DNA of 39,062 nucleotides, taken from Archangium sp. (lineage in GTDB: Bacteria; Myxococcota; Myxococcia; Myxococcales; Myxococcaceae). Shown one piece after another: positions 23,305 through 26,176 of the stretch (position 1 is the first letter of the stretch; each line of letters opens with the position of its first letter). The stretch lies in contig JAUYRZ010000059.1 of assembly GCA_030695565.1 (NCBI GenBank), forward strand, positions 1 through 39,062, read 5' to 3'. Under the pieces are notes generated by a model. The model was not told the DNA's origin. It saw only the letters and a list, made by a program, of their open reading frames with translations, and searched no databases. The translations under genes and the position numbers were made by a program.

Positions 23305-23721
23305 TCAGCGGCTGGGGCCCAGCTCGAGCAGCTGCGCGTCGATCTTCCCGATCTCTGCCTTGTTGCCAGCCGAAGCATGCAGCTTGCGCAGTTGGATGAG
23401 CGTGCCGCGCGCGTCTTCCTTGTGCTTGAGCTCGAGGTGCACGTTGGCGAGATCCTGCAGCAACTCCATCGATGGCTGGCCCCACACCACGGCGCCTTTG
23501 AGCACCGCGAGCGCCTTGGTCGCAAAGCCGGCCGTCAGGTGCGCCTGGGCGGCGCGGCGGGCGTACTCGTGCGCGCCGTTGAGATCGCCCTGCGCCTTGA
23601 GCTGGCTCGCGAGATCCTGCGCGAGCCGCGGATCGTTCGGGTTCTCGTCGGCGCGCTCACGCAACGCCGCGAGTGGATCTCCGCTCTGCTTCTTCTGGAA
23701 CAACCCTCCAAGAAATCCCAT
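23305..23721 (-). CDS. TPR-repeat protein next to the Hsp70-like gene
   Basis: A 138-residue protein, MGFLGGLFQKKQSGDPLAALRERADENPNDPRLAQDLASQLKAQGD..., with about three tetratricopeptide-type helix pairs: DPRLAQDLASQLKAQGDLNGAHEYARRA, then GFATKALAVLKGAVVWGQPSMELLQDLANVHLELKHKEDARGTL, and a closing helix. The short N-terminus MGFLGGLF is hydrophobic but not a cleavable signal. It starts 34 bases after the end of the Hsp70-like gene and probably shares its transcript. TPR proteins often bind Hsp70 partners or clients, so it may be the partner of the truncated chaperone; that is inference from adjacency. Confidence 0.82.
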   Translation of the reverse strand: MGFLGGLFQKKQSGDPLAALRERADENPNDPRLAQDLASQLKAQGDLNGAHEYARRAAQAHLTAGFATKALAVLKGAVVWGQPSMELLQDLANVHLELKHKEDARGTLIQLRKLHASAGNKAEIGKIDAQLLELGPSR

Positions 23722-23755
23722 GGGGCGCAGCGTAGACGAGTCCGCCCTCGGGCGA

Positions 23756-24919
23756 TCACCTGATCAAATGGGGGAAAGCGCCGAGGAAAGCCGCCCCGCG
23801 CGCGACCGCCGTCTGGGGGTCGTTCTCGATGTCGAGGGGGAGCTGGAAGGCCTCAGACACCGCCTCCCGCACCTGTGGGATGAAGGTGGTGCCGCCAATC
23901 AAGCTCACCGTCGAGAGTGATTTCGGGTCGATACCGCTGCCCTTGATGGTCTCCCGGGTCACCTCGATGGCCCGGGTGACCAGCTCATCCCACACCGGCG
24001 CCATCACCTGGCGGGTGACGGGGAGCTCGATGTCCCACCTGCGCCCCTTGGCACCCAGTGCTTCGGGAATCAGGTAGCGCGCCGAAGGAGACGAAGAGAG
24101 CGCGCGTTTCACCCGCTCGCAGGTGCGCTGGATGGTGTCGGCCAGCAGCACGTCGCGGGTCACGTCGAGCTGGTGGCTGCCCCACACCGCGCTGGCGACG
24201 TAGCGGGAGAACTGCGTGTCGAAGTCGTCACCGCCCAGGCTGTCATCGCCGCCGGTGCTCAGCACCTTCACCATGCCCTGCGCGTGCTGCACCACGGTGA
24301 TGTCGAGCGTGCCGCCGCCGAAGTCGAAGATGAGCCGCGGCGCGCCGGAGTCGCCTGCGCCTGCGATGCCTCGCGCCAGGGCACCCGCCACGGGCTCTGC
24401 CACCACGCGCAACACCTCGAGCCCGGCCATGCGGCCGATGCGCACCATGTCTTCACGCACGTTCCTGGGCGTGAGCACCGGCACCGTGACGATCGCCTTG
24501 GTGAAGGTCTTTCCGAACCGTGCCTGCGCCCGTTCACGGAGGTTGCGCAGCACGATGGCGGCGATCTCGCTGGCCGCGAACTCCCCGCTGCGCACGCGCA
24601 CCTTCACTTCTTCAGCAGGCCGGCCCACCAGCTTGCAGACACTGGCCGCCTGGAGCCTGCGCGCCTGGGGCGAATCGATGCTGCGGCCGATCACCCGCTT
24701 GATGCCGCTGACGGTGTTCTCGGGGTCACTCAGGCGCAGCTTGTCGGCTTCGATGCCCACGATGGGCGCGCCCGTCTTGGGGAAGTGCACCACGCTGGGA
24801 ATGCAGGCTTCGCCGCGTTCATCGACTGCGTAATGAAATTTGCCGTTCACCACGAGGGCGGCGGTGGAAAACGTGGTGCCGAGGTCGAGGCCCAGCACCG
24901 GCTCGGTCGAGTCGGTCAC
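23756..24919 (-). CDS. Hsp70-family protein consisting of the nucleotide-binding domain only
   Basis: The 387-residue protein has all the actin-fold motifs of the Hsp70 ATPase domain: phosphate 1 LGLDLGTTFS (about 9-18), AVDERGEACIPSVVHF, connect 1 AIVTVPVLTPRNVREDMVRIGRMAGLEVLRVVAEPVAGALA, phosphate 2 LIFDFGGGTLDITVV, GGDDSLGGDDFD, and the adenosine motif VSLIGGTTFIPQVREAV. It ends at GAAFLGAFPHLIR, where DnaK would go on through the linker into the substrate-binding domain. That domain is absent, and a normal stop follows. It may act as an ATP-driven switch with another protein. The TPR gene 34 bases downstream is the obvious candidate partner. About 95 bases separate it from hmgA upstream. 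Confidence 0.9.
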   Translation of the reverse strand: MTDSTEPVLGLDLGTTFSTAALVVNGKFHYAVDERGEACIPSVVHFPKTGAPIVGIEADKLRLSDPENTVSGIKRVIGRSIDSPQARRLQAASVCKLVGRPAEEVKVRVRSGEFAASEIAAIVLRNLRERAQARFGKTFTKAIVTVPVLTPRNVREDMVRIGRMAGLEVLRVVAEPVAGALARGIAGAGDSGAPRLIFDFGGGTLDITVVQHAQGMVKVLSTGGDDSLGGDDFDTQFSRYVASAVWGSHQLDVTRDVLLADTIQRTCERVKRALSSSPSARYLIPEALGAKGRRWDIELPVTRQVMAPVWDELVTRAIEVTRETIKGSGIDPKSLSTVSLIGGTTFIPQVREAVSEAFQLPLDIENDPQTAVARGAAFLGAFPHLIR

Positions 24920-25015
24920 GGATCAATGGGTAGTGACCGGCAGGGGGGCCGCGCCGCGCAATGTTTTTGACGCGGGTCGGGTGTCACCCAGCGAGTCACT
25001 CCGGTTCCACCGAGC

Positions 25016-26176
25016 TCAGGGAATGAAGCTCATCTGGTAGGTGTGATCTTCCAGCGCGGCCGCGTGGACCGTGGGCACCAGCGGCAGGAAACAGTCGAGC
25101 ATCACCGCCAGCTCGTTCGTCTCCTTGTGCCCGATGCTGCCCTCGTAGCTGCCCGGGTGCGGCCCGTGCGGAATGCCCGCGGGGTGGAAGCTCATGGAGC
25201 CGGGGCTGACGCCCTTGCGCGAGGTGAAGTTGCCCTTGCAGTAGAAAATGAACTCGTCGACGTCGACCGACGAGTGCGGGTACGGGCAGGGGATCGCCTC
25301 GGGGTGAAAGTCGGTGGGGCGCGGCACGAAGCTGCACACCAGCGCACCCCGCGCGGCGAAGGTGCCGTGCCAGGTCGGCGGCAGGTGCGTGAGGCCCACG
25401 CGCGGCTGGAAGTTCAAGATGGGGAACGCCCACGGGTAGATGGTGCCGTCCCAACCGACCACGTCGAGAGGCTGATCCTTCGTGGTGAAGCCGTGGAACA
25501 CGTCGCCGCGCTTGACCACCGTCTCGCGAATGCCTTCGTCGCGCGGATCCATGAACGTGGGCGGGCGGAAGTCGCGGTGCGTGTAGGGCGCGTCCATGCG
25601 CAGCTGGCCCACGTTGTTGCGCCACTGCCGGGGAATGTGAGCGCCCCCGCGGCACTCGATCCACAACCACCACTGCGGCACGCCGGGGCGGGGGATGAAG
25701 CGGTGCAGGATGCCGCGGGGCACGTAGACGTAGTCGCCTTCGTTGAACTCCACGTCGCCCAGCAGCGAGCGCAAGGTGCCCCCGCCCTGGTGGATGTAGA
25801 AGAGGTCGTCGCCGTCGCCGTTGCTGAAGTACGCGCTGTCTTCGATGGTGGGCTTCACGATGCCCAGCGTGACGTCGGCGTTGAAGAGAATGGGGATGCG
25901 CGCATCGAGCGGGCTCTTCGGCGACGCGTCGAGCATCTGCGACTGGTAGTGGCGCTTGCGCAGGTCGCGCGGGGGCGCCGCTTCACGAGGCAACCAGCCG
26001 TGCGTGGTGGGGGCTCCGATTTGCCGGTGCGGCGGCTCGCGGTGGTACGTGATGGTGTACGGAGCGTCGAAGCCCTCCTGCGTGATGCAGTGTTCGTAGT
26101 GGAGGTGGCCCGTGCCGTCGCGCAGCTGCAGGTGATGCTTCTTCGGGACGATGCCGTTCACGAGGCGCTCGATCAT
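25016..26176 (-). CDS. hmgA: Homogentisate 1,2-dioxygenase
   Basis: The 386-residue product matches the short bacterial form of homogentisate dioxygenase, a double cupin that opens the ring of homogentisate to 4-maleylacetoacetate using Fe(II) and O2. Supporting features are YFSNGDGDDLFYIHQGGGTLRSLLGDVEFNEGDYVYVPRGILHRF (first cupin), WWLWIECRGG, and the second cupin with FSFHPAGIPHGP, where His 337 is the likely iron ligand. It lacks a signal peptide. It is transcribed divergently from the sulfate transporter operon. The other tyrosine-pathway genes in this window (hpd and maiA) are about 9-11 kb away on the same strand, so it is not in one operon with them. The start at 26176 gives a complete N-terminus. 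Confidence 0.92.
   Translation of the reverse strand: MIERLVNGIVPKKHHLQLRDGTGHLHYEHCITQEGFDAPYTITYHREPPHRQIGAPTTHGWLPREAAPPRDLRKRHYQSQMLDASPKSPLDARIPILFNADVTLGIVKPTIEDSAYFSNGDGDDLFYIHQGGGTLRSLLGDVEFNEGDYVYVPRGILHRFIPRPGVPQWWLWIECRGGAHIPRQWRNNVGQLRMDAPYTHRDFRPPTFMDPRDEGIRETVVKRGDVFHGFTTKDQPLDVVGWDGTIYPWAFPILNFQPRVGLTHLPPTWHGTFAARGALVCSFVPRPTDFHPEAIPCPYPHSSVDVDEFIFYCKGNFTSRKGVSPGSMSFHPAGIPHGPHPGSYEGSIGHKETNELAVMLDCFLPLVPTVHAAALEDHTYQMSFIP

Follow-up and report, generated by a model that had tools for sequence, protein, structure and literature searches.

The window analysed here, a stretch of 39,062 nt from Archangium sp., sits on contig C76 of a genome of 8.5 Mb in 134 contigs. It contains a gene for an Hsp70 nucleotide-binding domain (NBD), a gene for a small TPR protein directly downstream, and a dioxygenase-like gene directly upstream (Table 1).

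Table 1. Genes and sequence elements of the Hsp70 locus, in window positions
Feature	Position	Strand	Details
Homogentisate 1,2-dioxygenase-like (cupin) gene	25016..26176	-	386 aa; upstream; HgmA_N E 8.5e-5
GATC-containing block	24920..24935		just before the Hsp70 start
Hsp70 NBD-only gene	23756..24919	-	387 aa; GTG start; Pfam, PDB alignment, family alignment
TACGCT (TANNNT element)	23729..23734	-	7 nt ahead of the TPR start
Small TPR protein gene	23305..23721	-	138 aa; AlphaFold, Foldseek, weak Pfam

An Hsp70 family that ends at the edge of the NBD

The Hsp70 frame is open throughout, between the GTG at 24919 and the stop codon at 23756, and encodes an NBD only. Specifically, the Pfam HSP70 model (599 positions) matches residues 8–381 at model positions 1–373 (E = 2.1e-80), residues 5–381 align almost end to end with Hsp70 NBDs of the PDB, and the C-terminus, FPHLIR, is located at the last NBD helix, with the linker (VLLLDVTP) and the substrate-binding domain (SBD) absent. 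A tblastn search of the window with seven Hsp70 C-terminal halves (E <= 1) revealed no SBD; the only matches, at E 0.66 and 0.83, were in other parts of the window. Both a linker and a substrate domain are part of DnaK and of HscC. The preliminary description of this DNA, made from the sequence alone, had proposed an ATPase domain only, ending where the linker of DnaK begins, lying 34 bases from the TPR gene and differing in design from both DnaK and HscC; the domain limits, the gap and the difference in design are all confirmed.

Of 195 Myxococcota genomes, 18 encode a homolog of the same short form, the source genome included (single-sequence search, E <= 1e-70), and a profile of the 18 recovers the same 18 of 195 (E <= 1e-95, 499–664 bits); most of the genomes are draft assemblies, so in individual cases an assembly gap may underlie the absence from another genus. 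The best of the other Hsp70s in a single-sequence search of 60 relatives has an E-value of 6.9e-63, and PDB Hsp70 chains score at most 301 bits against the family profile. The NBD-only group is therefore separated from ordinary Hsp70s by a gap in both E-values and profile bits. Hsp70 matches of any kind are found in all 60 relatives searched. The window protein is 86% and 74% identical to its counterparts in two Archangium metagenome genomes. A pattern scan of genome contigs, which finds close relatives only, returned three myxobacterial records and one distant Hsp70 (31%), and a plasmid search returned 235 records, none of them at 60% identity or above, with at most 33.5% identity among the 15 listed.

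All 18 members stop close to the last NBD helix, at a distance of a few residues at most; the tail of G055, the longest, has about 10 more. DnaK positions 388–392, which correspond to the linker, are empty in 18/18 in one alignment; in a second alignment, G055 alone has unrelated tail residues there. EEVD is absent from the C-terminus in all 18, and a TPR clamp would have no such tail to grip. In a tree of 55 NBDs (18 family members, 13 other Hsp70s of the source genome, 20 from relatives and 4 from E. coli, the source-genome frames for tree and counts being chosen by phmmer), the 18 form one branch with support of 100/99 and a long stem, and this branch is present in 100% of 200 bootstrap trees; long branches meet at the sister-group position of the 18, where placement is weakly resolved. 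The alignment of the 18 has 54 invariant columns, mean identity to E. coli DnaK is 30%, and dN/dS among four close copies of the genus is 0.18–0.39 (6 pairs). The family, as judged by alignment and tree, is monophyletic, shares the truncation throughout and evolves under purifying selection.

A hidden frameshift, which the preliminary description had named as a way in which its reading could fail, is excluded because the end is the same in 18/18 homologs, the homologs form one branch, dN/dS is low, 54 columns are invariant and the window holds no SBD; the shared end and the lack of an SBD in the window likewise rule out a pseudogene.

The source genome contains 13 other clear Hsp70s, each scoring at least 189 bits against the DnaK NBD and each having at least 97 residues past the NBD match. 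Two carry a PilZ-like N-terminal domain, above the Pfam cut-off in one (L009, contig C43) and below it in the other (L008, contig C122); PilZ-DnaK proteins of M. xanthus are named in PMC10313047. A further frame of 873 aa (L014, contig C85, 1309–3927, +) has, beyond its Hsp70 NBD, about 450 residues in which Pfam recognises no substrate domain, and another (L006, contig C97) matches Hsp70 at 546 bits over a span reported to contain one TGA and one TAG.

Nucleotide pocket and J-protein contacts

The ATPase residues D8, K70, E171, D194, T199 and D201 (DnaK numbering) are kept in 18/18 members; at the level of the alignment, the Hsp70 NBD is complete and its catalytic residues are in place. The preliminary description had called all ATPase motifs intact, and this holds for the catalytic residues but not for the adenine-stacking arginine (DnaK 345, Hsc70 342), which is Phe346 in the window protein. 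In Hsc70, the adenine is sandwiched between Arg272 and Arg342 (PMC5052559). The first arginine of this clamp (R271, DnaK numbering) is present in all 18 members, and the second place, DnaK 345, is Phe, Tyr or Trp in 17. Arginine occupies that place in 12/13 of the other source-genome Hsp70s and in 20/20 Hsp70s from relatives, the latter being best hits per genome that lean towards DnaK. Instead of two arginines, Arg272 and Phe346 probably hold the adenine, and the altered clamp should change nucleotide affinity or exchange. Because the AlphaFold model of the Hsp70 (only 4 sequences) is poor, with a pLDDT of 52, the statement on the clamp rests on alignment.

The residues of the NBD reported in PMC4022485 to mediate DnaJ binding or stimulation reveal a second change. 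In particular, N170, T173, D148 and E217 are each found in 1/18 members, and R151 in 9/18, R167 in 14/18 and V218 in 15/18. The corresponding counts for the other source-genome Hsp70s are 12/13 (N170), 11/13 (T173), 9/13 (D148), 9/13 (E217), 12/13 (R151), 11/13 (R167) and 12/13 (V218), and N170 and T173 are each present in 20/20 Hsp70s of relatives. With the linker, N170, T173, most of the 146–148 loop and the acidic E217 gone, J-domain control is open to doubt; R167 and V218, together with P143 (18/18), belong to the allosteric network and are mostly kept, which leaves room for some J-protein or allosteric contact. The pattern points to J-protein control that is weak or lost, though not uniformly.

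Identity to DnaK at the 19 NBD contacts to the SBD listed in PMC8910936 is 0.36, versus 0.30 overall, for the family and 0.56, versus 0.45 overall, for the other source-genome Hsp70s. Faster loss at these contact positions than elsewhere is not shown (Fisher p = 0.52). With J-domain sites added, at what we take to be their positions, the value is p = 0.08; the positions in the catalytic list of the same comparison are likewise our assumption. We do not claim decay of the docking face, because the contact positions are not lost faster than others.

The TPR gene and other neighbours

The TPR protein is identifiable chiefly by its predicted structure. Its best Pfam match is TPR_19 (E = 3e-4), with scores under the curated cut-offs; its AlphaFold model has a mean pLDDT of 90 and contains seven helices that pair as about three TPRs; and the best Foldseek matches of the model are TPR proteins, with modest TM-scores. 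An N-terminal segment, MGF(L/F)GGLF, is common to the protein and its two aligned relatives. Among the 60 relatives searched, close copies (62–100% identity) occur in the genus only, in G000, G002, G003, G004 and G005, with a second copy in G003; the next match, in G007, is 37% identical. The second G003 copy (L095, 6134–6535, −; 66% identity) keeps MGFLGGLF and has no Hsp70 of the NBD-only family within 12 kb. In G002, a larger second TPR gene (225 aa; L057, 5570–6244, −) diverges from the Hsp70 gene.

The genus set comprises six genomes (G000–G005), of which four carry the Hsp70. In all four, the TPR gene follows on the same strand at 26–54 bases, while much of the surroundings differs. No TPR homolog is found near the Hsp70 in the 14 carriers outside the genus (fetched loci of 6.7–14 kb, some reaching a contig end and the G074 locus, L076, included; ORFs of at least 50 aa, E <= 0.01). 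Of the two genomes of the genus that lack the Hsp70, G001 (79% complete) yielded neither gene, and G004 (97% complete) lacks the NBD-only Hsp70 by both single-sequence and profile search and retains the TPR gene. The gene order is dioxygenase-like gene, TPR, Sir2 in G004, and dioxygenase-like gene, Hsp70, TPR, one further gene, Sir2 in G003 and G005; because the G004 contig spans the locus unbroken, the local absence of the Hsp70 is firm. The G004 TPR protein is 78% and 76% identical to those of G000 and G003, and 59% and 58% identical to those of G005 and G002, and a dN/dS of 0.22 against the window copy indicates purifying selection. Since the G004 copy is closer to G000 and G003 than to G005 and G002, the simpler reading is that G004 lost the Hsp70; a stretch of about 18 bases resembling the Hsp70 3′ end precedes the G004 TPR gene and lends this reading weak support.

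The preliminary description had suggested that the TPR protein could supply client or partner binding in trans. The pair is conserved in all four carriers of the genus and in none of the carriers elsewhere, leaving 14 of 18 carriers that encode a close homolog of the same length with no TPR neighbour; the description itself had named such an outcome as refuting, and the proposal is unsupported. No Hsp70-TPR fusion appears in the ten of the 13 other clear source-genome Hsp70s that were scanned with Pfam. The absence from the fetched loci outside the genus and the occurrence of the TPR gene without the Hsp70 in G004 rule out the TPR protein as a general partner, despite its adjacency in the carriers of one genus. 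The TPR gene is probably a separately kept neighbour within the genus; a loose or recent functional link to the Hsp70 may exist but is not required by the data.

A TANNNT element lies 6–7 nt before the TPR start in 4/5 copies (G000, G003, G005 and G004, not G002), the five copies being those beside the Hsp70 or at the same locus. This placement occurs at 9/176 called genes versus 2/352 control placements (p = 0.001, from related, non-independent loci). The element is suggestive of a possible own, leaderless promoter, and the enrichment fits a TPR transcript of its own. A TANNNT promoter for the Hsp70 gene was considered and dropped; an upstream block, TAC(C/G)CATTGATC, is common to three members and misfits the pattern. 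The GATC-containing block just before the Hsp70 start is found in 7/18 members (G000, G003, G005, G002, G030, G009 and G162) and is perhaps a control site.

The dioxygenase-like gene has its HgmA_N match over the Pfam cut-off and scores 39 bits against TIGR01015, far below the cut-off. It is located directly upstream of the Hsp70 in G000, G003 and G005 and about 5.7 kb upstream in G002, and it adjoins the TPR gene in G004. It is not thought to belong functionally with the Hsp70. The dioxygenase-like gene and the TPR gene are the only neighbours common to all four Hsp70 loci of the genus, so the three genes may be an old cluster, which would count against our reading of the TPR gene.

No neighbour is common to two families of carriers (17 loci, with the G074 neighbours at L076 left out of the count and genes called by a simple codon-based script; BLAST E <= 1e-8, at least 40% of query), and a family-wide dedicated partner, if any, is therefore encoded elsewhere. 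Several neighbours are common within one genus, and a few across genera of one family, namely two genes in G075 and G076, one in G005 and G159, a kinase gene in G000, G022 and G161, and a short pilin-like gene in G006 (L061, 7522–7788, +; 88 aa by eye) and in three genomes of genus g5 (G009, G161 and G162). Neighbours in other carriers include genes for a CoxE-like VWA protein (G022), an HNH nuclease (G076), a Radical SAM protein (G091) and a cyclic-nucleotide-binding protein (G055). A local partner within sub-groups of carriers is possible. In G077, a distant family member (L079, 5740–6900, −) lies directly upstream of FliL, MotA and MotB and is read in the same direction, and a gene for a sigma-54 activator runs divergently; this arrangement would allow a possible flagellar link in that lineage.

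Interpretation and comparison with known systems

We consider it somewhat probable that the protein functions as a switch in its own right, a stand-alone ATPase of the Hsp70 type, rather than as one half of a chaperone. Such an NBD would bind and slowly hydrolyse ATP, its cleft would open and close with the nucleotide state, and that state would be passed to a partner protein, encoded elsewhere, that docks on the NBD surface. Unfolded peptides would not be bound via the usual domain, and the protein would perhaps act without J-proteins. A fuller history, which we put forward tentatively and would sooner doubt than assert, is that of an old Myxococcota Hsp70 family that shed its chaperone half and J-protein control and rebuilt its adenine pocket (Arg plus aromatic), so that its ATPase became an independent timer or switch serving a partner.

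Other readings are less likely. The NBD could modulate ordinary Hsp70s, pairing with full-length DnaK or competing for a nucleotide-exchange factor; the 13 other Hsp70s of the source genome would offer targets, and the NBD of MxDnaK2 is reported to determine dimerisation in M. xanthus (PMC11019930). We regard this role as unlikely, given an NBD so far from DnaK, and the presence of Hsp70s in every relative searched, with the NBD-only form in 18 of 195 genomes, argues against a general helper. A split chaperone, a single two-part machine with client or partner binding by the TPR protein and power from the NBD, would account for the close spacing and common strand of the pair amid largely different surroundings and for purifying selection on both genes. 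It is nonetheless quite improbable in our estimate: the TPR gene is missing from all 14 fetched loci outside the genus, it persists without the Hsp70 in G004 and, as a second copy, in G003, and it may be transcribed from a promoter of its own. Because all four loci contain the dioxygenase-like gene as well, the adjacency may be inheritance of one locus.

The NBD belongs to the same superfamily as actin-like proteins, and its match to Pfam MreB_Mbl (E = 2.5e-13) would fit a ParM/MreB-type monomer that forms filaments or scaffolds. The same model matches 10/10 scanned source-genome Hsp70s, so the match reflects shared ancestry only, and the HSP70 match is far stronger; we reject an actin-like identity drawn from this match and find a filament-forming role very improbable. 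A decaying DnaK duplicate that has lost its second half would explain the patchy distribution and the absence from G004 within the same genus, but the common end point, the invariant columns, the low dN/dS and the single well-supported branch leave this reading scarcely credible.

Hsp70 allostery is usually read as the NBD and SBD working together. A bacterial NBD-only family in which the catalytic residues are kept and several J-contact residues are changed offers a natural test of the lone ATPase half.

The family is a new Hsp70 family, and its kind, an Hsp70 without a substrate domain, is already known, for example from HSPA13/STCH and YegD; the open-licence full-text literature searched holds no account of an NBD-only Myxococcota family. 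It shares with canonical DnaK/Hsp70 the NBD and the catalytic residues and differs in having no linker and no SBD, in the replacement of the clamp arginine (17/18) and in the loss of N170 and of T173 (17/18 each). HscC falls outside the 18 in the tree, where long branches are weakly resolved, and the family has no HscC-type substrate domain. M. xanthus is reported to have 15 Hsp70s, and the six compared in PMC8265645 all have an SBD.

E. coli YegD (450 aa, 'HSP70 family protein') is likewise bacterial and Hsp70-like, with no linker in the alignment. It differs in its low identity (21% over 226 residues, E = 4e-7), its separate position on a very long branch of the tree and its retention of arginine at 345; the partial identity and the tree position rule out orthology. 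The closest likeness, one of architecture with HSPA13 taken by description, is to HSPA13/STCH, an Hsp70 NBD that also has no SBD. As described in PMC9691929, HSPA13 is an animal ER protein and an active ATPase that is not stimulated by peptide, it reportedly retains most J-domain contact sites, and control of a protein contact by its nucleotide state is discussed as an idea. Unlike HSPA13, the Myxococcota family has N170 and T173 in only one member each. By analogy, the NBD-only Hsp70 most likely works like HSPA13/STCH, as an ATPase that may control a protein contact through its nucleotide state.
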